Part shown: positions 30,407-40,729 of the stretch, one piece after another
Layout: the number at the start of each line of letters is the position of its first letter
Position numbering within the stretch: the first letter of the stretch is position 1
Source of the DNA: Haloferax sp. Q22
GTDB taxonomy: Archaea; Halobacteriota; Halobacteria; Halobacteriales; Haloferacaceae
Direction of reading: 5' to 3'
Length of the DNA: 64,000 nt
NCBI RefSeq assembly: GCF_001482285.1
Contig: NZ_LOEP01000037.1
Span: 62,001-126,000 of the forward strand
Program-made: the position numbers and the translations under genes
The notes under the pieces: model-generated
Told to the model about the DNA's origin: nothing
Database searches by the model: none
Seen by the model: only the letters and a program-made list of their open reading frames with translations

Positions 30407-30748
30407 TCAGCGAGTGGGCTGAACGCCGAGGTTCGACGCGTCTGGACCGAACTCCTCGGCCAACAACGACGGCACGTCGTCGGGGCGAACGTCCGAGTAC
30501 CACCGGTTCCGCGGGTGGATGGCGACCGCGGCCCCATCGGCGCTACAGAGGCCGAGACAGCTCGTTTCGGCGACCTGAACCCGCGACCAGAAGACGCCAC
30601 GGTCGCGCAACCACGAGGTCACCGCGTCGTACACCGCGGTGCCGTCGGCCTCGGCGCAGTCGGCGTACTCGGACTCTCGGCTGTTCGTACAGACCAACAC
30701 GTGGTCCGTGAAGCCGTGCTCGCGGATTTCGTCGGTTCGGTCGCGCAT
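30407..30748 (-). CDS. thioredoxin-like 2Fe-2S ferredoxin
   Basis: A 113-residue protein of the thioredoxin-like 2Fe-2S ferredoxin type. Four Cys in the expected pattern are seen: VCTNSRESEYADC near residues 19-31 and SCLGLC near 64-69. The segment after them (VAIHPRNRWYSDVRPDDVPSLL) closely resembles the C-terminal domain of the CbiX fusion in the same cluster (VAVYPDSVWYGGVTPDDTDRIV). It is translated from a start overlapping the cbtA stop, so it is made with the cobalt transporter. A redox role in corrin synthesis or cobalt handling is likely but the partner is unknown. Confidence 0.8.
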   Translation of the reverse strand: MRDRTDEIREHGFTDHVLVCTNSRESEYADCAEADGTAVYDAVTSWLRDRGVFWSRVQVAETSCLGLCSADGAAVAIHPRNRWYSDVRPDDVPSLLAEEFGPDASNLGVQPTR

Positions 30749-31608
30749 CAGTCGGCCGCAGGAGCCGAGTCCCGGCCTGCGGTCGGAATCGCCGATTCGG
30801 ACTCGGACTCACTCGACAGCCGGAACCACGCGTGCGCCGCCGCGAGGACGAGCCACAGGAGGACCTGCCCGAACGCGAACAGTCCGGTGAGTCCGGTTTC
30901 AAGCGTCGGCGACAGCGCCCCGTGAACCGCGTTTTCGGGGGCGACGACGGCGAGGGCCGCGAGCAGACTGAACGGAACGACCGCGCCGACGATGGCCGCA
31001 GGGAGGCCGCTCGACTCGCGCAAGCGGGTGTAGGCGTAACCCGCCGAGAGGCAAGCGAGCGCGCCGGCGAGCATCATCCCGGCGTAGAGCGGGAGCCGCG
31101 TCGCCACCGAAAGCGACTGCTCCGCGCCCGGCGCGGCCGGCGGGAGGACCAGCCACGGCGCGCCCGAGACGGTGATGAACCCCGCGAGGCCCATCAGGTA
31201 GCTCTTCGCGGCGTCGGGACCCGGAATCGCCGGTTCGAGGAAGAAGAACGCGACCCCGAAGAACGCGCCGCCGAGCACGACGCCCCACAGCCCGCCGGCC
31301 GCGACGCTCACGGCCTTCGTGACCGCCATCGACACCGCGGTGTCGTGATGGCCGCCGCCTTCGCCGGCGTGAGAGTCACCGGACCCGTGGCTGTGAGTTC
31401 CTTCGGACTCGTGGCTGTGAGTTCCTTCGGACTCGTGGCTGTGGGCGCTCTCCGCCTCGTGGCTGTGACCGCTCTCCTCAACCGTGGCGTGGTTCAGTTC
31501 GTCCGCGTAGGCGACGAGAGGGTTGGCGACGACGGCCATGAACAGGCCGAACACCAGTCCGGCGACCAACCCCGCCTTCACCCCCCGCGTCAGGTACTGG
31601 GCGAACAT
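30748..31608 (-). CDS. cbtA: CbtA-type cobalt transporter subunit
   Basis: A 286-residue membrane protein of the CbtA family, predicted cobalt transporters tied to B12 genes. There is a first helix (residues 12-32), then a long His-rich loop with repeats of the type SHESEGTH between about 42 and 85, then several more membrane segments. The His-rich loop should bind the metal; its DNA contains a perfect 24-bp tandem repeat. It lies 2 bp after cbtB and shares a base with the ferredoxin start. Facing the corrin genes, it would supply cobalt to CbiX and CobN. Confidence 0.83.
   Translation of the reverse strand: MFAQYLTRGVKAGLVAGLVFGLFMAVVANPLVAYADELNHATVEESGHSHEAESAHSHESEGTHSHESEGTHSHGSGDSHAGEGGGHHDTAVSMAVTKAVSVAAGGLWGVVLGGAFFGVAFFFLEPAIPGPDAAKSYLMGLAGFITVSGAPWLVLPPAAPGAEQSLSVATRLPLYAGMMLAGALACLSAGYAYTRLRESSGLPAAIVGAVVPFSLLAALAVVAPENAVHGALSPTLETGLTGLFAFGQVLLWLVLAAAHAWFRLSSESESESAIPTAGRDSAPAAD
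31387..31434 (-). repeat. 24-bp perfect tandem repeat coding His-rich octapeptides in cbtA
   Basis: Two identical adjacent 24-bp units (31387-31410 and 31411-31434) are followed by a partial third. They keep the reading frame and encode eight-residue units containing HSH and acidic residues. Copy-number change by slippage would alter the length of the metal-binding loop. Confidence 0.8.
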
Positions 31609-31610
31609 GG

Positions 31611-31796
31611 TTAGTGACAGGCGATACCGGCCGCGTGGCGGAAGTTGTGCAGCGAGTCGTGGACGAGCGGGTCCTGCACGAACAGGAGCGTAAAGCCCAG
31701 CGCGGCGATAAAGAGGGCTCCTGCAGCCATCTGCGTGGGGGATAGCTCGGTACGAGCGCGTTCGATTCGACCGTTGACGGTGTTCGCCGTAGCCAT
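31611..31796 (-). CDS. cbtB: CbtB-type cobalt transporter small subunit
   Basis: A 61-residue protein with one membrane segment (about residues 22-40) followed by a His-containing tail (DPLVHDSLHNFRHAAGIACH). This is the hallmark of CbtB, whose His residues are thought to bind cobalt. The start at 31796 is where the family homology begins. It is immediately upstream of cbtA and divergent from cbiT across a 170-bp promoter region. Confidence 0.8.
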   Translation of the reverse strand: MATANTVNGRIERARTELSPTQMAAGALFIAALGFTLLFVQDPLVHDSLHNFRHAAGIACH

Positions 31797-31966
31797 GGTA
31801 AACTCAGATTGATGAAAACCAAGTCTGCTTGTAAAACTTTCGAAGACAACCAAGATTGCAATTCAACAACTTAGATTTAATAACTCATCGGGGCAGTTTT
31901 ATGAAAGTTCATTTGCTGTACTCCAAGCACAATTGTTTTCAAACCGCGCCCGGATTGTCGAGTCGA
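31797..31966. promoter_or_regulatory. divergent promoter of cbtBA-ferredoxin and the cbi operon, with direct repeats
   Basis: Two 15-bp direct repeats that match at 12 positions, GAAAACCAAGTCTGC (31814-31828) and GACAACCAAGATTGC (31845-31859), lie 31 bp apart, three helical turns. They are on the cbtB side. TATA-like sequences are ttttatga near 31,900 and ttttcaaa near 31,937 for cbiT, and ttttac on the minus strand near 31,833. The region probably responds to cobalt or cobalamin; regulator unknown. Confidence 0.45.
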
Positions 31967-32521
31967 ATGTCACAGGTAACGCTCCCGCACGACGCCAAGG
32001 CGGGACCCACGAAACCGGAGGTGAGAGCGGTCACGCTCGACAAACTCGGCTTGCGGCCGACGGACCACTTCGTCGACGTCGGCTCCTGTACCGGCTCGGT
32101 CACCATCGAGGCGGCCCGCCGGGTCGAGCGCGTGACCGCCGTCGAACGGAAACCGAAGCGACTGGACGTGACGCGAAAGAACCTCGCGGCGAACGAGTAC
32201 GACGCCGACGTGACGCTCCGCGAGGCGGAGGCTCCCGACGGCCTCCCGGACGACGCCGACGCGATGTTCGTCGGCGGCAGTCGGAACTTCGAGGCCGTGT
32301 TGGACCACGCCGTCGAAACCGGCGTTGACCGAATTGTCATGAACGTCTCGCGGGTCGAACCCGCTGGCGACGCCATCGAGGCGTTCCGCGAGCGCGACCT
32401 GCTCTCGGAGGTCGTCCAGATGCAGGTGAGCCACGGCTACGAACTCGCCGGCGCGACGAGTTTCCGGTCGAACAACCCGGTGTACGTCGTCGTCGGTCGA
32501 CGCGACGCGGAGGGACTATGA
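31967..32521 (+). CDS. cbiT: cobalt-precorrin-6B/8 C15-methyltransferase and decarboxylase
   Basis: A 184-residue class I SAM-dependent methyltransferase of the CbiT family, which methylates C15 and removes the acetate carboxyl at C12 during corrin synthesis. Typical features are the N-terminal TKPEVRAVTLDKLGLRPTDHFVDVG with SAM loop VDVGSCTGSVTIEAAR (about residues 36-51) and the ERKPKRLDVTRKNL segment. It is the first gene of the plus-strand cobalamin operon and overlaps cbiL by 4 bp. CbiE, often fused to it in other organisms, is separate here at 47454. Confidence 0.88.
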   Translation: MSQVTLPHDAKAGPTKPEVRAVTLDKLGLRPTDHFVDVGSCTGSVTIEAARRVERVTAVERKPKRLDVTRKNLAANEYDADVTLREAEAPDGLPDDADAMFVGGSRNFEAVLDHAVETGVDRIVMNVSRVEPAGDAIEAFRERDLLSEVVQMQVSHGYELAGATSFRSNNPVYVVVGRRDAEGL

Positions 32522-33225
32522 CCGTCTACGGCATCGGCCTCGGCCCCGGCGACGCCGACCTCGTGACCGTCAAGGGGAAACGCCTGCTCGAATCGGCGGC
32601 GGTGGTCTACTCGCCCGGCCGACTCTCGCGGACGGTCGCGCTGAACCACGTCCCCGAGGAGCGCATCGGCGATCTCGATTTCCCGATGACGCGCGACCCC
32701 GACGAACTCCGCCGCGCGTGGAAGGAGGCCGCCGCCGAGGTGGCCACCCGCGCCGAGTCCGAGGACGTGGCGTTCGTGACGCTCGGCGACCCCAACGTCT
32801 ACTCGACGTTCGGACACCTCCGCCGCACCCTCGCCGCGTTCCACCCCGAGGTCGACCTCGAAGTCGTCCCCGGCGTGAGCGCGATGACGGCCTTCACGAC
32901 CGCGCTCGGCGTCGAAATCGAGTCCGGAACCGGACTCGCGCTCCGCGAGGCTGCCAACGGCTCCGCGCCGACCGGTCCCGACCGCATGGTACTGTTCAAG
33001 GTCACCGATGCGCCGGCGACCCACGAGAAGCTGACCGAGGCGGGCTACGACGTTCGGTTCGGCCGCCGGCTGTTCATGGAACAAGGCGAGACGGTCGTCA
33101 CCGACGACCCCGACGAACTCGCGGAGCGCGACTACTACACGCTGGCCTACGCGGAGCGCGAGGGTGTCGAGCGCGACGTGGCGACTGCCGCGTTCGACGG
33201 TGTCGAGTCGGGGGGGTCGGCGTGA
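32518..33225 (+). CDS. cbiL: cobalt-factor II C20-methyltransferase
   Basis: A 235-residue tetrapyrrole methylase of the CbiL type. The N-terminal SAM-binding motif is GIGLGPGDADLVTVKG (residues 5-20), the second loop is TLGDPNVYSTFGHL, and the middle has VPGVSAMTAFTTALG. It adds the C20 methyl to cobalt-factor II, one of the first steps of ring contraction. The length is normal for the family. It overlaps both neighbours by 4 bp. Confidence 0.88.
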   Translation: MTVYGIGLGPGDADLVTVKGKRLLESAAVVYSPGRLSRTVALNHVPEERIGDLDFPMTRDPDELRRAWKEAAAEVATRAESEDVAFVTLGDPNVYSTFGHLRRTLAAFHPEVDLEVVPGVSAMTAFTTALGVEIESGTGLALREAANGSAPTGPDRMVLFKVTDAPATHEKLTEAGYDVRFGRRLFMEQGETVVTDDPDELAERDYYTLAYAEREGVERDVATAAFDGVESGGSA

Positions 33226-34067
33226 GCGTCGACGGCGAAGCAGACACCGGCTTCACCGACGACGAGGGAATCCCCTTCGTCGGCGCGGGACCGGGCGACC
33301 CGGACCTGCTCACCGTCGCCGGGAGAAAACTCGTCGAGGACGCCGACCTCGTGGTTCACGCGGGGTCGCTCGTCAACAGCGAACTCTTAGACGAGTTCTG
33401 CGCCGACGCGGAGCAGGTCAACAGCGTCGGCAAGGACCTCGAAGAGCTGATTCCGCTGATGGCGGACGCCTACGAGTCGGGGCGAACCGTCGTCCGACTC
33501 CACAGCGGCGACCCAGCGATTTACGGGGCCGCCTTAGAGCAGATGGACGCGCTGGCCGAGGCGGGCGTTCCGAGCTACCTCGTCCCCGGCGTCACCTCGG
33601 CGTTCGCCGCGAGCGCGACGCTCCGAACCCAGTTGACGCTGAACGAGGTCTCGAACCACGTCGTCTTCACCCGGCCGCAGGGCCGGACGCTCTCGGCCGA
33701 GGAAGACCACATCAGCGACTTCGTCGGCTTCGGCGACACCACGGTCTGCATCTACCTCGGCACCCACGCCGTCGCCGAGACGATGGACCGGCTGCTGGAC
33801 GAGGGCCACGACCCCGACACGCCCGTCGCGGTCGTCTACCACGCCTCCTGGCCGGACGAAGACGTCATCGAGGGCACCATCGAGACCATCGGCGAGCGGG
33901 TCGAAGACGCGGGCTACCGCGCCTCGGCGCTCGTCATCATCGGCGAGGCGGTGAACGGCTCTGACTACGAGCGGTCGTTCCTCTACGGCGACTGGGCCCG
34001 CGGCGGCGACGCACCGAACGACGAACCCGATGGTGATTCCGAACCGCAGGAGCGTGATGCGCAATGA
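33222..34067 (+). CDS. cbiF: cobalt-precorrin-4 C11-methyltransferase
   Basis: A 281-residue tetrapyrrole methylase. The GTG start at 33222 overlaps the cbiL stop. Motifs: VGAGPGDPDLLTVAGRKL (SAM), HSGDPAIYGAALEQ, VPGVTSAFAASATL, and TRPQGRTLSAEEDH, characteristic of CbiF/CobM. It methylates C11. The acidic C-terminal tail (about 30 residues) is a haloarchaeal embellishment. It is followed by cbiG with a 4-bp overlap. Confidence 0.88.
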   Translation: MSVDGEADTGFTDDEGIPFVGAGPGDPDLLTVAGRKLVEDADLVVHAGSLVNSELLDEFCADAEQVNSVGKDLEELIPLMADAYESGRTVVRLHSGDPAIYGAALEQMDALAEAGVPSYLVPGVTSAFAASATLRTQLTLNEVSNHVVFTRPQGRTLSAEEDHISDFVGFGDTTVCIYLGTHAVAETMDRLLDEGHDPDTPVAVVYHASWPDEDVIEGTIETIGERVEDAGYRASALVIIGEAVNGSDYERSFLYGDWARGGDAPNDEPDGDSEPQERDAQ

Positions 34068-35044
34068 GCGACGCAGACTCTAACTCCGACACCGACTCCG
34101 GAAGCGGCCACTGTAGCACTCCCGACAGCGACGGCGAGGTAGCCGACGAAATCGCCATCGTCAGCTTCGAACGAAAACTCGACACGGCGGAGGAAATCAA
34201 ACGCGACCTCGCGGACGACTACGACCAGATAGACATACTCACCTACCACGGCGACGTGTTCGCCGACCACTGGGGCGAGTACGATTGCTTTGTCGGCCTC
34301 ATGGCCAGCGGCATCGCCATGCGGAAAACCGCCGACCTCCTCGACGACAAGTGGGAGGACCCGGCGGTCGTCGTCGTCGACGAGGAACTGACGTGGGCGA
34401 TACCGCTCACCGGCGGCCACCACGGCGCGAATCAGGTCGCCCACGACCTCTCGAAACTCGGGGCCGTCCCGGCGATGACGACCGCCTCGGAGGCCGCGGG
34501 CAAGCAGGGCGTCGAGAGCAAGGCGAAGGCGCTCGACTCCCACGTCGTCAACGGCGATTCGACCGTGGCGACGAACCTCGCCGTCCTCAACGACGAACTC
34601 GGTCCCGTCGCCCGACTCGACGGTCCGAAGGCGGTCCTCGTCGGCGACGACGTGACCGTCCTGAAGCGCAACGGCGACGACGGCGTCGTCCTCGGGACGG
34701 GCAGCGTCTCCGGCGCGAAGAAAGCGCAGTTCCTGACGGCGTGGGAGCGCGCGCTCGACGACGCCGACTGCGACTGGGACGACGTGGAGTTCGTCGCCAC
34801 CGGCACGCGAAAGGCGGACGAACCCGGCATGCTCGACGCCGCCGAGGAAATCGGCGCGGGCGTCGTCTACTTCGAAAAAGAGACCCTCACCGAGTTCGAG
34901 GGGCCGACGCCCTCGCGGTCGAAGGAACTCATCGGCTGGCCCGGCATCGCCGAGGCGAGCGCCATCGCCGGCGGCCGCGACCACGAACTGGTCGTCAAAA
35001 AGCGGCGCTACGACGACGCCGTGACCGTGGCGGTGGGACGATGA
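34064..35044 (+). CDS. cbiG: cobalt-precorrin-5A hydrolase
   Basis: A 326-residue CbiG protein, which opens the delta-lactone of cobalt-precorrin-5A and releases acetaldehyde. After an acidic leader (about 25 residues) come the N-terminal domain (VGLMASGIAMRKTADLL, PLTGGHHGANQVAHDL) and the C-terminal domain (VATGTRKADEPGMLDAAEEIG; FEGPTPSRSKELIGWPGIAEASAIAGG), both typical. It overlaps cbiF and the next gene by 4 bp each. Confidence 0.88.
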   Translation: MSDADSNSDTDSGSGHCSTPDSDGEVADEIAIVSFERKLDTAEEIKRDLADDYDQIDILTYHGDVFADHWGEYDCFVGLMASGIAMRKTADLLDDKWEDPAVVVVDEELTWAIPLTGGHHGANQVAHDLSKLGAVPAMTTASEAAGKQGVESKAKALDSHVVNGDSTVATNLAVLNDELGPVARLDGPKAVLVGDDVTVLKRNGDDGVVLGTGSVSGAKKAQFLTAWERALDDADCDWDDVEFVATGTRKADEPGMLDAAEEIGAGVVYFEKETLTEFEGPTPSRSKELIGWPGIAEASAIAGGRDHELVVKKRRYDDAVTVAVGR

Positions 35045-35919
35045 GTGACGGCGACGAGCCGACCGAACCGGCGTCCGACTCCAGCGACCGCAACCGCAGC
35101 CGTGACGAGGACCCAGACGACTACGGAACCCTCTATGTCGTCGGCATCGGTCCCGGCCTCCCCGACCACATGACGAAGCGAGCGAAGGAACTCGTCTCGA
35201 CCTCGGACTGCGTGGTCGCTTCGAACCTCTATCAGGAGTTCCTCCGAGACGACGGAACCCTCCCACCCGAAGAAAGCGACGAGGGGCCGGAGGTCGTCCG
35301 CTCGTCGATGGGAAAGCAGGTCGAACTGACCCGCGAGGCGTTCGAGCGCGTCCGGAACGGCGAGGACGTAGTCCACGTCTCCGGCGGCGACCCGAACGTC
35401 TACGGGAAGTCCGACCTCGTGTTCACGATGGCGGAGACGGACGCGGCGACCGACGTGCCCATCGAAATCGTCCCCGGCGTCACCGCGGCGCTCGGCGGCG
35501 CGGCCATGATGGGCGCGCCGCTGTCGAACGACTTCTGTACGGTCTCGCTGTCCGACAAGTGGCGCGGCTGGGACGAAATCGAGGAGAAACTCCGCGCGGC
35601 CGCCATCAGCGGCTTCGTCATCGTCCTGTACAACTGCTGGCGGAACTACGAACGCGCCATCGACGTGGTCCGCGAGGAGCGGGCCGACGACGTGCCGGTC
35701 GGCATCTTCAACGACGCCGGTCGGGGCGATGCCGGGCGAAATCTGGACGACGAGACGTTCTCGATTACGACCCTCGGCGACGCGAAGGCCCACGACGACG
35801 ACGTGGGCGGGATGGGGACCTCGATTCTCATCGGCACCCACGAGACCGAACCCTGGAGCAACGACTACGAAACGTACCTCGTCACGCCCCGCGGCGGGCG
35901 CGACGTCGACGACTTCTAA
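35041..35919 (+). CDS. divergent CbiH-like tetrapyrrole methyltransferase, copy 1
   Basis: A 292-residue tetrapyrrole methylase with an acidic leader of about 30 residues. The SAM motif is GIGPGLPDHMTKRAKEL and the second loop is SGGDPNVYGKSDLVFTM; VPGVTAALGGAAMMGAPL and DFCTVSLSDKW follow as in CbiH. However the usual YNPxSxxR loop is replaced by YNCWRNYERA. The classical CbiH adjacent at 35923 keeps that loop. This copy is commonly labelled CbiH too, but the change suggests a different position or substrate (C17 versus, for instance, C1; inference). Confidence 0.75.
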   Translation: MSDGDEPTEPASDSSDRNRSRDEDPDDYGTLYVVGIGPGLPDHMTKRAKELVSTSDCVVASNLYQEFLRDDGTLPPEESDEGPEVVRSSMGKQVELTREAFERVRNGEDVVHVSGGDPNVYGKSDLVFTMAETDAATDVPIEIVPGVTAALGGAAMMGAPLSNDFCTVSLSDKWRGWDEIEEKLRAAAISGFVIVLYNCWRNYERAIDVVREERADDVPVGIFNDAGRGDAGRNLDDETFSITTLGDAKAHDDDVGGMGTSILIGTHETEPWSNDYETYLVTPRGGRDVDDF

Positions 35920-35922
35920 TCC

Positions 35923-36903
35923 ATGAGCGAATCAGACACGACAACCGAATCGAAGTGCGGCGGAGCGACTGCGGAATCGACCGACTCGGCCGACGCAGAA
36001 TCGAAGTGTGGCGCGTCGTCCTCGAAGTCCGACGACGAGTCATCCTCGAAGTGCGGCGGCAGTTCGGGCGGGTCGAAGAAAGAACAGACCGCGGAGAAGG
36101 TCGAAGCGACCGTCGAGGACTTCGACGGCGAACCGGGGCAACTCGTCGCCGTCGGCCTCGGTCCCGGTCGCGCGAGCGAGATGACTACGCTGGCGAAAGA
36201 CACGCTCCGCGAGGCCGATCACATCGTCGGCTACACGACCTACATCGAACTCCTCCCCGACGACATCGTCGAGGACGCCGAGGACATCTACTCGACGCCG
36301 ATGTGCGGCGAGGTCTCCCGGACCGAGGAGGCGGTCGACCGAACGCTCGCTGGCAACGACGTGGCAATCGTCGGCAGCGGCGACCCCAACGTGTACGCGC
36401 TGGCCGGCCTCGCGCTCGAAATCCTCGAATCGAAGGGCGCGACCGCGAGCATGGTCGACTTCGACGTGGTCGCGGGCGTCCCGGCGGCGCAGTCCTGCGC
36501 GGCCCGACTTGGCGCGCCGCTCGTCAACGACACCGTGACCATCAGCCTCTCGGACCACCTGACCTCGATGCCGACCATCGAATCGCGCCTCCACGCGGCC
36601 GCCAAGGAGGGCTTCACTATCGCTATCTACAACCCGTGGAGCCGCAAGCGCCGGTCGAACTACGAGAAGTGCTGCGAGATTCTCCTCGAACACCGCGCGC
36701 CCGACACGCCGGTCGGTATCGTCCACGGCGCGGGCCGCGACGACGAGGAAGTCGAAATCGTCGAACTCGGCGAACTCCCTGACCTCGGCGAGACCGACCT
36801 CGTGGACATGACGACGACGCTGCTGGTCGGCAACGAGGAGACGTACGTCTGGGACGACCGGATGGTGACGCCGCGGGGCTACGAGCAGAAGTACGAGTAC
36901 TGA
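35923..36903 (+). CDS. cbiH: cobalt-factor III C17-methyltransferase, copy 2, with Cys-repeat N-terminus
   Basis: A 326-residue CbiH enzyme (C17 methylation and ring contraction). The methylase core starts near residue 65: VGLGPGRASEMTTLAKDTL, GSGDPNVYALAGLALEI, VAGVPAAQSCAARLGAPL, IYNPWSRKRRSNYEK, all canonical. The first 60 residues are a low-complexity Ser/Glu/Asp segment carrying three SKCG units (Cys near 12, 29 and 44). These could bind cobalt, iron or an Fe-S cluster, or be lipid-free thiol donors; nothing in the core needs them. It starts 3 bp after copy 1. Confidence 0.85.
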   Translation: MSESDTTTESKCGGATAESTDSADAESKCGASSSKSDDESSSKCGGSSGGSKKEQTAEKVEATVEDFDGEPGQLVAVGLGPGRASEMTTLAKDTLREADHIVGYTTYIELLPDDIVEDAEDIYSTPMCGEVSRTEEAVDRTLAGNDVAIVGSGDPNVYALAGLALEILESKGATASMVDFDVVAGVPAAQSCAARLGAPLVNDTVTISLSDHLTSMPTIESRLHAAAKEGFTIAIYNPWSRKRRSNYEKCCEILLEHRAPDTPVGIVHGAGRDDEEVEIVELGELPDLGETDLVDMTTTLLVGNEETYVWDDRMVTPRGYEQKYEY

Positions 36904-36904
36904 G

Positions 36905-37162
36905 ATGTTCGAAATCGAAATCGACCGAGACGCCTGCGACGGCATCTTCGCCTGTCTCGCCCGCGACGGCCGGTTCGTCGAGGACGACGACGGACTCGCC
37001 ACAATCGACCCCGACGCGGCCGGCGTCGTGCGCGTCGAGCAGACGGACGAGCGCGTCGTCGCTCTCCTCGAAGGTGATGCCGAAGCCGACGACGACGACG
37101 CGACGCTCGCGGCGCGAGCCTGTCCGCCGGGTGCGATTTCGGTCCGGGAGGTGGACGCGTGA
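36905..37162 (+). CDS. small 3Fe-4S/4Fe-4S-type ferredoxin
   Basis: An 85-residue acidic ferredoxin-like protein. Cys11 and Cys17 (ACDGIFACLA) and Cys73 followed by Pro (ACPPGAIS) give the three-Cys pattern C-x5-C...C-P of 3Fe-4S ferredoxins. The loop DDGLATIDPDA between them is as expected. It lies between cbiH and an uncharacterised gene with a 4-bp overlap to the latter. It could donate electrons in the corrin pathway (for example to an unidentified precorrin-6A reductase or to cobalt reduction), which is inference. Confidence 0.78.
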   Translation: MFEIEIDRDACDGIFACLARDGRFVEDDDGLATIDPDAAGVVRVEQTDERVVALLEGDAEADDDDATLAARACPPGAISVREVDA

Positions 37163-37881
37163 GCGACGCGAACGCCGACGGCTCGGCCGCGGACGCCGAC
37201 TCGGACGCGAGCGTGGACTCCGGCGTCGCCCCCGCGGACGACCTCCTGAAAAGTGCGCCCGAGACGGCCTATCTCTGGGGCCACGTCGCCGGCGGCGGAA
37301 CGGTCGAGCCGGGACAGTTCACGGCGCTGACGAACGACGAGACCTGCGCGAACCGCCTCGCAGTCATCGCCGGCGGCGGCGAAATCGACCGCCGGGAGAC
37401 GGAGCGAGAGTACGCCCACAACACCGCCGTCACCCGCGTCAAAGACGAGTACCACGTCATGGTCGAAGGCGACGTGGTCAGAAGCGCGAGCGCCGCGTTC
37501 GGCCTCCCCGTCGGCGACGACGACGGCGGCTACCGCTTCGACGTGTTCGAAGCCCGGCGAAAACAACTCCTTCGGGGACTCCTCGAATCCTGCGGGACGG
37601 TCTGTTTCAAATCCTCGTCGGGGACGGTCGGCATCTCGTTTGTCCACGACGACCGGGCGCTCCTCGACACCGTGGACCGACTGCTCGACGCCTGCCCCGT
37701 TGACGCGCCGACCGGCGAGATTCAAGAGACCTCGTCGGGCGGCTACTGGTTCGGCATCGACGACGACGCGGCCGCCGGCTTCGGCGAGTGGGTTTACGAG
37801 GGGAGCGACGAGACGAGCCTGTTCGCACCGACGCGGCGTCGAAAGCTCGTCCGCAGCCTCGAAGAGGCCGAGAACGCATGA
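37159..37881 (+). CDS. cobalamin-operon protein of unknown function, possible degenerate LAGLIDADG-like fold
   Basis: A 240-residue protein from a GTG start overlapping the ferredoxin stop. After an acidic 30-residue leader I see two similar halves. Each begins with a helix of the form L-x-G-(H/L)-x-x-x-x-G-T-V (LWGHVAGGGTV near 40-50, LRGLLESCGTV near 138-148). Each continues with alternating strands and helices. The C-terminus ends GEWVYEG...RRRKL, recalling the wLY...RK ending of LAGLIDADG-family proteins. The catalytic acidic residue of that motif is absent, so a non-cutting nucleic-acid-binding or ligand-sensing role is possible. The fold assignment is by eye only; the conserved operon position is solid. 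Confidence 0.6.
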   Translation: MSDANADGSAADADSDASVDSGVAPADDLLKSAPETAYLWGHVAGGGTVEPGQFTALTNDETCANRLAVIAGGGEIDRRETEREYAHNTAVTRVKDEYHVMVEGDVVRSASAAFGLPVGDDDGGYRFDVFEARRKQLLRGLLESCGTVCFKSSSGTVGISFVHDDRALLDTVDRLLDACPVDAPTGEIQETSSGGYWFGIDDDAAAGFGEWVYEGSDETSLFAPTRRRKLVRSLEEAENA

Positions 37882-39098
37882 GCCTCGAACGACCGGACCC
37901 GGCGCTCGACGACGATGCGGTGCTCCTCGTCGGCCACGGCTCGCGCCGCGAGGAGTCCAACGAGCAGGTTCGGACGCTCGCCGCGAAGTTGGAGTCCCGG
38001 CTGTCGATCCCGGTTGACGCGGCGTACATCGAACTCGCCGAACCCTCGATAGACGACGCAATCGGGTCGATGGCACCGACCTGCCGGACGATGACCGTCG
38101 TCCCCCTCTCGCTGTTTGCTGCGAGCCACGTCAAAAACGACGTGCCGCTTGCGGTCCAGCGGGCCCGCGCGACCCACGACGACACCGAGTTCCGGTTCGG
38201 CTCGCACCTCGGCATCCACCCCTCGCTCGTGGACCTGTTAGACGAGCGAGTGCAGGCGGTCGAGTCCGACCTCGGCGTCGACCGCGAGGACGACGACGTG
38301 GCGGTCGTGCTCTGCGCCCGCGGGTCGAGCGACCCAGACTCGAACGGTGACGTGCACAAACTGGCGCGCCTGCTGTACGAGGGTCGGGGGTTCACCCGCG
38401 TCGAATCGGCGTTCATCGGCGTCACCACGCCCCGGTTGGAGGAGACGCTTCACACCGTCGCCAAGGACCGCCCGGACGCGGTCGTCGTCCTCCCGTACAT
38501 GCTCGGCGACGGCGTGCTGACGGGGCGAATCGTGGACAAAGCCGAGACGTTCGACAAGGAGTACCCCTACGTCGACGCCGGCGCGTCGGGGCCGCTCGGC
38601 ACAGACGACCGGGTGGTCGAGACGCTCGCCGACCGCTACCGAGAAGCGCGCTCGGGGAGCGTCGAGATGTCCTGCGACACCTGCAAGTACAAGGTCGAAC
38701 TCGCCGGCTACGAGGACGACGAGGGCGGCGCTCGCGCGATGCTCCGCTCGCTCGTCCATCAGGCCGAACACGCCGACCGAAGCGACGTGGACGACGACCC
38801 GCACGCCCACGACGCCCCCGAGAAACACGTCGCGGTGTGCACGAACCAGACCTGCGCCGCGAGCGGCGCGGCGACCGTCCTCGAACAACTTAGACAGGGC
38901 GTTCGCGACGCCGACGACTGCGATGTCCACGTCTCGCGGAGTTCGTGTCTCGGCCAGTGCGGCGACGGTCCAATCGTCGCCGTCTACCCCGACAGCGTCT
39001 GGTACGGCGGCGTGACGCCCGACGACACCGACCGCATCGTCTCGTCCCATCTCGAACGGGACCGCATCGTCTCGAACCTCGTCCACCAATCACTCTAA
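37878..39098 (+). CDS. cbiX: sirohydrochlorin cobaltochelatase CbiX fused to a 2Fe-2S ferredoxin domain
   Basis: A 406-residue fusion. The N-terminal two-fold CbiX chelatase (about residues 10-265) has the metal-binding HGSRREESNEQ motif and a second half beginning VVLCARGSSDPDSN. It inserts cobalt into sirohydrochlorin, the first committed step of the early-cobalt route. A linker with CDTCKYK and a His/Asp-rich segment (HQAEHADRS...HAHDAPEKH) follows. The last 95 residues form a thioredoxin-like 2Fe-2S domain (CTNQTC...SCLGQC) similar to the free ferredoxin at 30407. The fused cluster may sense or supply electrons for cobalt. Confidence 0.87.
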   Translation: MSLERPDPALDDDAVLLVGHGSRREESNEQVRTLAAKLESRLSIPVDAAYIELAEPSIDDAIGSMAPTCRTMTVVPLSLFAASHVKNDVPLAVQRARATHDDTEFRFGSHLGIHPSLVDLLDERVQAVESDLGVDREDDDVAVVLCARGSSDPDSNGDVHKLARLLYEGRGFTRVESAFIGVTTPRLEETLHTVAKDRPDAVVVLPYMLGDGVLTGRIVDKAETFDKEYPYVDAGASGPLGTDDRVVETLADRYREARSGSVEMSCDTCKYKVELAGYEDDEGGARAMLRSLVHQAEHADRSDVDDDPHAHDAPEKHVAVCTNQTCAASGAATVLEQLRQGVRDADDCDVHVSRSSCLGQCGDGPIVAVYPDSVWYGGVTPDDTDRIVSSHLERDRIVSNLVHQSL

Positions 39099-39100
39099 TC

Positions 39101-39484
39101 ATGGCCTGTGCAGAACTCGAAGCGCTCCGACTGGCGCTCCTGAACATCACCGGAACGACCGACGAACACGCGAAGCGACACGCCGAAGCCGAACTCGAAG
39201 ACTACCTCGGCGACGCCGACCCCGGCCCGATTCAGGCGCTCGCGAACGCGACCACGCTCGACGAGGCCCAGCGACATCTCGACGCCGCGCTCGTCGACCT
39301 CGAAGCGGAGGCGACGCGAATCGACGACGACGACCCACAATCGGGCTACCTTCGGGGACGACTCGTCGCCGTCCGCGACGCCGAGCGGTCGCTGCGCCGC
39401 ATCCGCGAGGGAGCCGATGCGTTCCTCGACGACCTCGGGGAGGCGCACCACACGCTCCACGACGCCTTCCCCGTCGAGGACTGA
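39101..39484 (+). CDS. DUF3209 protein of the cobalamin operon
   Basis: A 127-residue all-helical acidic protein. It begins MACAELEALRLALLNITG and has long amphipathic helices (EHAKRHAEAELEDYLGD; TTLDEAQRHLDAALVDLEAEA; AVRDAERSLRRIREGADAFL). This matches DUF3209, found in haloarchaeal cobalamin operons, with no known function. It starts 2 bp after cbiX and ends 6 bp before the beta-propeller gene, so it is part of the same operon. A structural or chaperone-like helper for the chelatase is a guess. Confidence 0.75.
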   Translation: MACAELEALRLALLNITGTTDEHAKRHAEAELEDYLGDADPGPIQALANATTLDEAQRHLDAALVDLEAEATRIDDDDPQSGYLRGRLVAVRDAERSLRRIREGADAFLDDLGEAHHTLHDAFPVED

Positions 39485-39490
39485 CTCCCG

Positions 39491-40729
39491 ATGGCACCGT
39501 CCCCACTCACGGCCCGCCGCGATCTCGGGGAAGTCGAGCCCGCGAGCAGCCGCCACAACTGGGCTCGCTCCGCGGTCGAAGCGACCGACGACGCCGTCTT
39601 CGTCGGGACCGCGGACAGTCGCGTCATCGCGCTGGAGGCTGCTGCCGATTCCGCACCCCACGCCGGCGAACGTTGGCAGGCGCGCGGCGAGCACTCCGTG
39701 GTGTCGATGACCGCCACCGACGACTTCCTCGTCGTCGGCGAGCGCGGCGGCGACGGGCTGGTTCGCGTCCTCGACGCCGAGACAGGCGTCGCCCGCTGGA
39801 CGTACGCGACGGCCGACGACGTGGGCACGGCAACGAAGGACTCGCTGTTCTTCCGGCCGTACGTCGTCGACCTCGCGGTGACGGGCGACAGAGTGGTCGT
39901 CGCCGCCCGGCGCTACGAGCGGGACGGCGAGGAGCGATGCTGGCGGAGCGTCGTCCTCGGGTTCGACCGGGATGGCCGACTCGCGTGGCGCAGACGCGTC
40001 CACGCGTCGCCCATCGCGGTCGCCGCCGAAGGGGACCGCGTCGCCGTCGCGTACAACCGCTGTCCGAATCCCGAACAGGACGGCCTCGTTCTCCTCGACG
40101 CTCACTCCGGAGCGCGGGTCGCGTCGTGGGACCCCGACACCGACGGGGACCGACGCGTCGGCGACGTGGCCTTCGCGGGCGACGCGCTGGCCGTCGCCAG
40201 CCACGGCGACAAACGCGGCTATCTCCTCGATTTCGACGGGGAGACGCGGTGGCAACTCGACCTCGCGACCGAGCGCCGCGTCGGCGACGAGACCGTCTAC
40301 GCCTATCCGAACCACGTCTGCGTCGCCGACGGGACCGCCGTCTTCGTCACGGGGAACACGTTCGCCGAGTCGACCCGCGACCCGAACGCGCGACACCCCG
40401 ACGAACACACCGCGGTCGGCGTCTCGGTCGACGGGGGTGACCGCCTGTGGACCCGCGATACCGGCGGATTCGCACGGGCGGCTGTCACTACCGACTCGCG
40501 GGTGTTCGTGCCGTCCGCCCAGCACTTCCGGGACCGAGAGGCCGAGCGCCACGGCGTCCACGTTTTCGCCCCCGACGCGGGGCACGTCGAAACGATGGGA
40601 CTCCCCGGCATCCCGACCGCCATCGCCGCGGGTGGAGGCATCCTCACGGTGGTCGAAGAACCAGTCGAGTACCACGACGAGGGCGTCACTCGCGGGGCGT
40701 ACCGACTCCACACGCGACCGATTCGATAG
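39491..40729 (+). CDS. beta-propeller (PQQ/WD40-like) protein in the cobalamin operon
   Basis: A 412-residue cytoplasmic protein with repeated blades of the PQQ-like type. Examples are DDAVFVGTADSRVIALEA, DFLVVGERGGDGLVRVLDAETGVARWTY, DRVVVAARR...VLGFDRDGRLAWRR, DRVAVAYNR...LVLLDAHSGARVASW and DALAVASHGDKRGYLLDFDGETRWQL. No signal peptide. It is the last gene of the cbiT-led operon, 6 bp after DUF3209, and convergent with the ChlID-like gene. It has no known role in B12 synthesis; a scaffold for the chelatase complex or a cobalt/corrinoid sensor are possibilities. Confidence 0.75.
   Translation: MAPSPLTARRDLGEVEPASSRHNWARSAVEATDDAVFVGTADSRVIALEAAADSAPHAGERWQARGEHSVVSMTATDDFLVVGERGGDGLVRVLDAETGVARWTYATADDVGTATKDSLFFRPYVVDLAVTGDRVVVAARRYERDGEERCWRSVVLGFDRDGRLAWRRRVHASPIAVAAEGDRVAVAYNRCPNPEQDGLVLLDAHSGARVASWDPDTDGDRRVGDVAFAGDALAVASHGDKRGYLLDFDGETRWQLDLATERRVGDETVYAYPNHVCVADGTAVFVTGNTFAESTRDPNARHPDEHTAVGVSVDGGDRLWTRDTGGFARAAVTTDSRVFVPSAQHFRDREAERHGVHVFAPDAGHVETMGLPGIPTAIAAGGGILTVVEEPVEYHDEGVTRGAYRLHTRPIR

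Follow-up and report, generated by a model that had tools for sequence, protein, structure and literature searches.

What does the protein do that is encoded between a ferredoxin gene and cbiX in the cobalamin operon of Haloferax? The window analyzed here, a stretch of 64,000 nucleotides from Haloferax sp. Q22 (contig NZ_LOEP01000037.1, positions 62,001 to 126,000), has relatives at 93-95% identity that are Haloferax species, and the counterpart of the gene by order in Haloferax volcanii is HVO_B0055. A 2021 study listed HVO_B0055, along with HVO_B0052, HVO_B0053 and HVO_B0056, among the members of the cobalamin cluster with no assigned function, and suggested that these four genes might fill two pathway gaps (EC 2.1.1.195 and EC 1.3.1.106); LAGLIDADG is not mentioned in its main text (Pfeiffer and Dyall-Smith, 2021; PMC8305020). 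An earlier note on this DNA knew of no described function for the protein, and beyond the listing of HVO_B0055 as function-unassigned we likewise found none. Our computational analysis revealed a LAGLIDADG fold that has lost its nuclease residues, is kept under purifying selection and is tied to the cobalt-early B12 cluster. The protein, hereafter LAG, represents a homing-endonuclease fold that haloarchaea have domesticated and that has become a fixed component of their cobalt-early B12 operon.

Related loci keep the order cbiT-L-F-G-H1-H2-fdx-LAG-cbiX-DUF3209-PQQ (Table 1); of 78 loci, the ferredoxin gene immediately precedes LAG in 76 and cbiX immediately follows it in 77. Translation coupling on both sides, as the earlier note had claimed, is consistent with the reading frames, as the LAG start overlaps the ferredoxin stop by four bases (GTGA, 37159-37162) and the LAG end overlaps the cbiX start by four bases (ATGA, 37878-37881). 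Several features of the neighboring genes were also observed. The DUF3209 protein has five invariant residues (C3, H27, H59, H116 and H120) and matches its solved homolog TTHB059 at an E-value of 6e-10, and is possibly a metal binder. The N-terminus of CbiH2 (35923-36100) is a low-complexity extension with repeated KCGG/CGA motifs, which is present in several genera and absent in genome G007. Divergently oriented genes for a CbtB-CbtA cobalt transporter, with a histidine-rich stretch in CbtA, lie on the minus strand (30410-31853) together with a weak DUF1636-like ferredoxin.

Table 1. Features of the LAG locus and of one related locus (window coordinates, unless a locus is named).
Feature	Position	Strand	Remarks
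Operator-like element CTCCAAGCACAATTGTTTTCAA	31921..31942	+	conserved before cbiT, with and without LAG
cbiT, cbiL, cbiF, cbiG, cbiH1, cbiH2	31967..36903	+	operon genes upstream of ferredoxin
Ferredoxin (Fer4_15)	36905..37162	+	overlaps LAG start
LAG (LAGLIDADG-fold protein)	37159..37881	+	240 aa, GTG start; HVO_B0055 counterpart by gene order
First LAGLIDADG-like motif LWGHVAGGGTV	37273..37305	+	residues 39-49; first catalytic-acid position is G46
H87	37417..37419	+	invariant, 89/89
Second LAGLIDADG-like motif LRGLLESCGTV	37570..37602	+	residues 138-148
C145	37591..37593	+	replaces second catalytic acid; Cys 88/89, Thr 1
C149	37603..37605	+	invariant, 89/89; on strand after second motif helix
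H163	37645..37647	+	nearly invariant, 85/89
CbiX cobaltochelatase	37878..39098	+	MSCDTC motif; C-terminal thioredoxin-like [2Fe-2S] domain; no His-rich tail
DUF3209 protein	39101..39484	+	HVO_B0053 by order; homolog of Thermus TTHB059 (PDB 2ehw)
PQQ-repeat beta-propeller protein	39491..40729	+	HVO_B0052 by order
Second cbiX of G052, with His-rich tail	L087:9712-10640		in LAG slot; about 60% identical to normal CbiX

The kinship of LAG had been suspected in the earlier note from two L-x-G-x5-G-T-V starts and a C-terminal W-x-Y...RRRKL pattern, and all of these were located in the protein (L39-W-G-HVAGG-G47-T-V, L138-R-G-LLESC-G146-T-V, and W211-V-Y213 with RRRKL at residues 226-230). The Pfam family LAGLIDADG_3 matches the window protein below threshold (E 0.07) and 10 of 16 relatives (best E 4.2e-5), so that the resemblance exceeds chance. 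Single-sequence and profile searches of LAG against the sequences of solved structures returned nothing relevant, NCBIfam holds no model for it, and hhalign against one intein of the same genome placed the second repeat in register at a low probability (14.9%); hence the fold assignment rests on structure prediction and Pfam. The AlphaFold model, built with 53 sequences, is confident (mean pLDDT 88.3, pTM 0.85) and shows two helix-strand repeats, and a Foldseek search of the PDB retrieved I-Tsp061I as the best match (E 2.6e-7), along with the TliVMA intein, I-DmoI, PI-SceI, a maturase and the LAGLIDADG domain of WhiA, which bears out the fold that the earlier note had proposed. Beyond a disordered N-terminus, the whole modeled chain consists of this fold, and its two-fold repeated helix-strand-strand-helix-strand-strand-helix arrangement, matching solved members, is that of the LAGLIDADG superfamily. 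The model of the most divergent LAG relative, from genome G021, has the same fold and structural matches.

In active homing endonucleases an acid stands at the end of both motifs, and the gene resides in an intron, an intein or another mobile setting. Comparison with such enzymes (I-DmoI, I-Tsp061I, PI-SceI; LAGLIDADG_3) revealed the same two-repeat fold in LAG, and among 89 distinct LAG sequences the first catalytic-acid position is occupied by serine in 42, by the original aspartate in 28, by glycine in 10 and by asparagine in 7. In contrast to these enzymes, the second catalytic acid is absent from all 89 (cysteine in 88, threonine in one), and LAG lies outside introns and inteins, at a fixed position in a metabolic operon. 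The catalytic acid reported as missing in the window protein is indeed replaced at both positions, by G46 and C145. Judged from its sequence, LAG is no longer expected to cut DNA, because the second acid has been replaced throughout.

The distribution of LAG follows that of cobalt-early B12 synthesis. LAG was found in 145 of 292 sampled Halobacteria genomes and CbiG in 151 (150 above the cut-off); comparison of the two lists showed that every genome with LAG also has CbiG, with LAG in 145 of the 150. CbiG occurs without LAG in G001, G007, G129, G268 and G052, plus G139 with a marginal CbiG match, and no LAG was detected outside Halobacteria in a sample of 393 genomes from the phylum. In G001, G007, G129, G268 and the later-found G318, cbiT-L-F-G-H1-H2-X, chlID and cobN are present, and the cluster lacks the ferredoxin, LAG, DUF3209 and PQQ genes. 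This minimal arrangement (loci L083, L084, L085, L086 and L092), with a His-tailed CbiX, represents a second type of haloarchaeal cbi cluster and occurs in three families. COX1 is missing in only 4 of the 292 genomes (G001, G007, G093 and G129); the three of these with CbiG all lack LAG, and all have the minimal cluster type. The genus Halodesulfurarchaeum has been described as unable to grow with oxygen and cytochrome-oxidase negative (PMC5437934). A link between the LAG-less cluster type and anaerobic life is suggestive only, because G268 lacks LAG yet has COX1.

A difference in the chelatase itself accompanies the presence or absence of LAG. The cluster CbiX of LAG-containing loci is about 400 residues long, with a thioredoxin-like [2Fe-2S] region at its end and 0-3 histidines among its last 80 residues, whereas all six CbiG-containing genomes without LAG have a CbiX with 12-26 histidines in that stretch. 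The CbiX proteins of G001, G007, G129, G268 and G318 carry the His-rich tail and no thioredoxin-like [2Fe-2S] region, and LAG was never seen together with a His-rich CbiX tail in the examined LAG loci. Particularly informative is G052, a genome in one complete contig: a second, His-tailed CbiX is encoded after the ferredoxin and before the normal cbiX, in the very slot where the genus-mates G085 and G166 have LAG, and the ferredoxin, normal CbiX, DUF3209 and PQQ genes are retained. Of the 97 family members in which CbiX was matched, only G052 has two full copies, and in the 42 LAG-containing genomes tested only one such CbiX was found in each. On a tree of CbiL-F-G-H1, the LAG-less state needs two changes, which suggests that LAG and the His-rich tail were exchanged in two independent evolutionary events; as there are only two, the association falls short of significance and is a lead rather than proof. 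According to a review, the His-rich region of the Bacillus megaterium CbiX has been proposed to serve in metal storage and delivery, and deletion of the C-terminal region left cobalt insertion in vitro unaffected (PMC7689651). The His-rich region of CbiX-L may be a functional analog of LAG in cobalt storage and delivery to the chelatase, without homology, the one being a flexible tail and the other a folded protein.

Taken as a whole, these patterns are best explained, tentatively, by a role of LAG as a cobalt-handling partner of CbiX. In this proposal, LAG would bind Co2+ and would buffer it or deliver it to CbiX for insertion into sirohydrochlorin, doing for this CbiX what the His-rich tail is proposed to do in others; the candidate ligands C145, C149, H87 and H163 may represent the old nuclease metal site in reworked form. 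The exchange of LAG with a His-tailed cobaltochelatase favors this reading, as does the context in G021, where the divergent LAG lies outside the B12 cluster, flanked on the same strand by two cation-efflux (CDF) genes and accompanied by a rhodanese gene; this setting supports a tie to metals through a transport partnership or sensing. Further support comes from the position of LAG directly before cbiX in nearly all loci, from its confinement to CbiG genomes, from the conservation of C145 and the invariance of H87, E143 (also 89/89) and C149, and from the storage and delivery role proposed for the His-rich region. On the other side, the CDF context is known from one genome, conservation of H163 is incomplete, one protein has threonine in place of C145, and the B. 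megaterium enzyme chelates in vitro without its C-terminal region. A redox switch would explain the cysteine pair equally well. A more specific version, in which Cys/His ligands turned the homing-endonuclease metal site into the cobalt site of a folded chaperone exchangeable for the His-rich chelatase tail, is on the doubtful side. To our knowledge, use of the LAGLIDADG fold on anything other than nucleic acids would be new.

The alternative that survives best, although unlikely, is that LAG regulates B12 or cobalt-transport genes by binding DNA, possibly while sensing metal or redox state; its LAGLIDADG saddle would hold DNA without cleaving it, as in a WhiA stripped of the helix-turn-helix. 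The fold family binds DNA, and WhiA (DUF199), whose domain is a close structural match, is itself a domesticated LAGLIDADG domain without nuclease role; the ferredoxin neighbor of LAG recalls the WhiA-WhiB pair, and the CDF neighbors in G021 would also fit a metal sensor. However, the C-terminal helix-turn-helix domain that marks WhiA-type regulators is missing from the LAG model, and no helix-turn-helix family was matched. LAG further differs from WhiA in belonging to another domain of life and another gene context, and DNA binding on its part is hypothetical. Its net charge per residue is also more negative than that of two inteins from the same genome (-0.09 vs -0.05 and -0.03), a weak point in halophiles. 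Evidence from a candidate operator of the B12 operon is also unfavorable. This element, an inverted repeat (TAAAACAA-N6-TTGTTTTA) about 35 bases before cbiT, has the consensus TAAAACAAcCAaAATTGTTTTA and was found in some 38 loci, among those that include the cbiT start, both with LAG and in all six without it. Since LAG-less genomes keep the element, which is the only conserved operator-like one found before cbiT, a factor other than LAG must read it there, and a LAG-dependent operator at this position was rejected. The WhiA-like regulation of B12 genes put forward in the earlier note is accordingly weakened, although LAG might act through other sites. In loci with a split operon (L065, L107, L015 and L102) the element also precedes cbiH1, and no second copy with up to three mismatches was found elsewhere in the window, the cobN promoter included.

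Some other role within the operon, for example aiding CbiX or the ferredoxin in assembly or redox reactions, or binding RNA in the manner of LAGLIDADG maturases, has a low probability. Fe-S genes adjoin LAG and a maturase is among its structural matches, but RNA binding leaves the exchange with His-tailed CbiX unexplained.

It is improbable that LAG is a tetrapyrrole-binding protein or enzyme that fills the CbiD or CbiJ gap, or a scaffold that protects oxygen-sensitive intermediates; the earlier note had offered a corrinoid-binding scaffold as a hypothetical role. Both CbiD and CbiJ are absent, four unassigned genes including HVO_B0055 were proposed as gap fillers in the 2021 study (PMC8305020), and the lack of the LAG-containing module in the COX1-less CbiG genomes would suit oxygen protection. 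Nevertheless, CbiD and CbiJ were absent in all 12 genomes tested, with and without LAG, so that the two gaps occur regardless of LAG. Where LAG, ferredoxin, DUF3209 and PQQ are missing, CbiT, L, F, G, H1, H2 and X are retained and CbiD and CbiJ are again absent, and G001, G007, G129, G268 and G052 all have CbiG without LAG, CbiD or CbiJ. This genome comparison weakens the gap filling proposed for HVO_B0055, and G268 shows that the oxygen link is not strict. We know of no LAGLIDADG enzyme of this kind, which we also count against the reading.

Selection on the gene bears on the least probable alternative. Within Haloferax, the dN/dS of LAG is 0.15-0.30, compared with 0.05-0.14 for cbiX, and LAG is under purifying selection without decay; the term degenerate, applied to it in the earlier note, therefore holds for the catalytic residues and not for the gene. 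Kinship to mobile inteins and three LAGLIDADG_3 matches above the cut-off in intein-bearing genes of this genome might recall a homing endonuclease that is in decay or arrived recently and serves no cellular role, but that is very improbable and is refuted by these dN/dS values, the fixed position, conservation in 145 genomes and the coupling of LAG to CbiG.

If the cobalt-handling proposal is true, the fold of selfish DNA-cutting enzymes was recruited into vitamin B12 synthesis, probably in metal supply, and thus found a use outside nucleic acids. Our results argue against simply equating LAG with the missing CbiD or CbiJ, and the annotation question of HVO_B0055 becomes directly testable in a genetically tractable archaeon. 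The finding also bears on how haloarchaea, most of them aerobic, manage to operate the cobalt-early (“anaerobic”) pathway.
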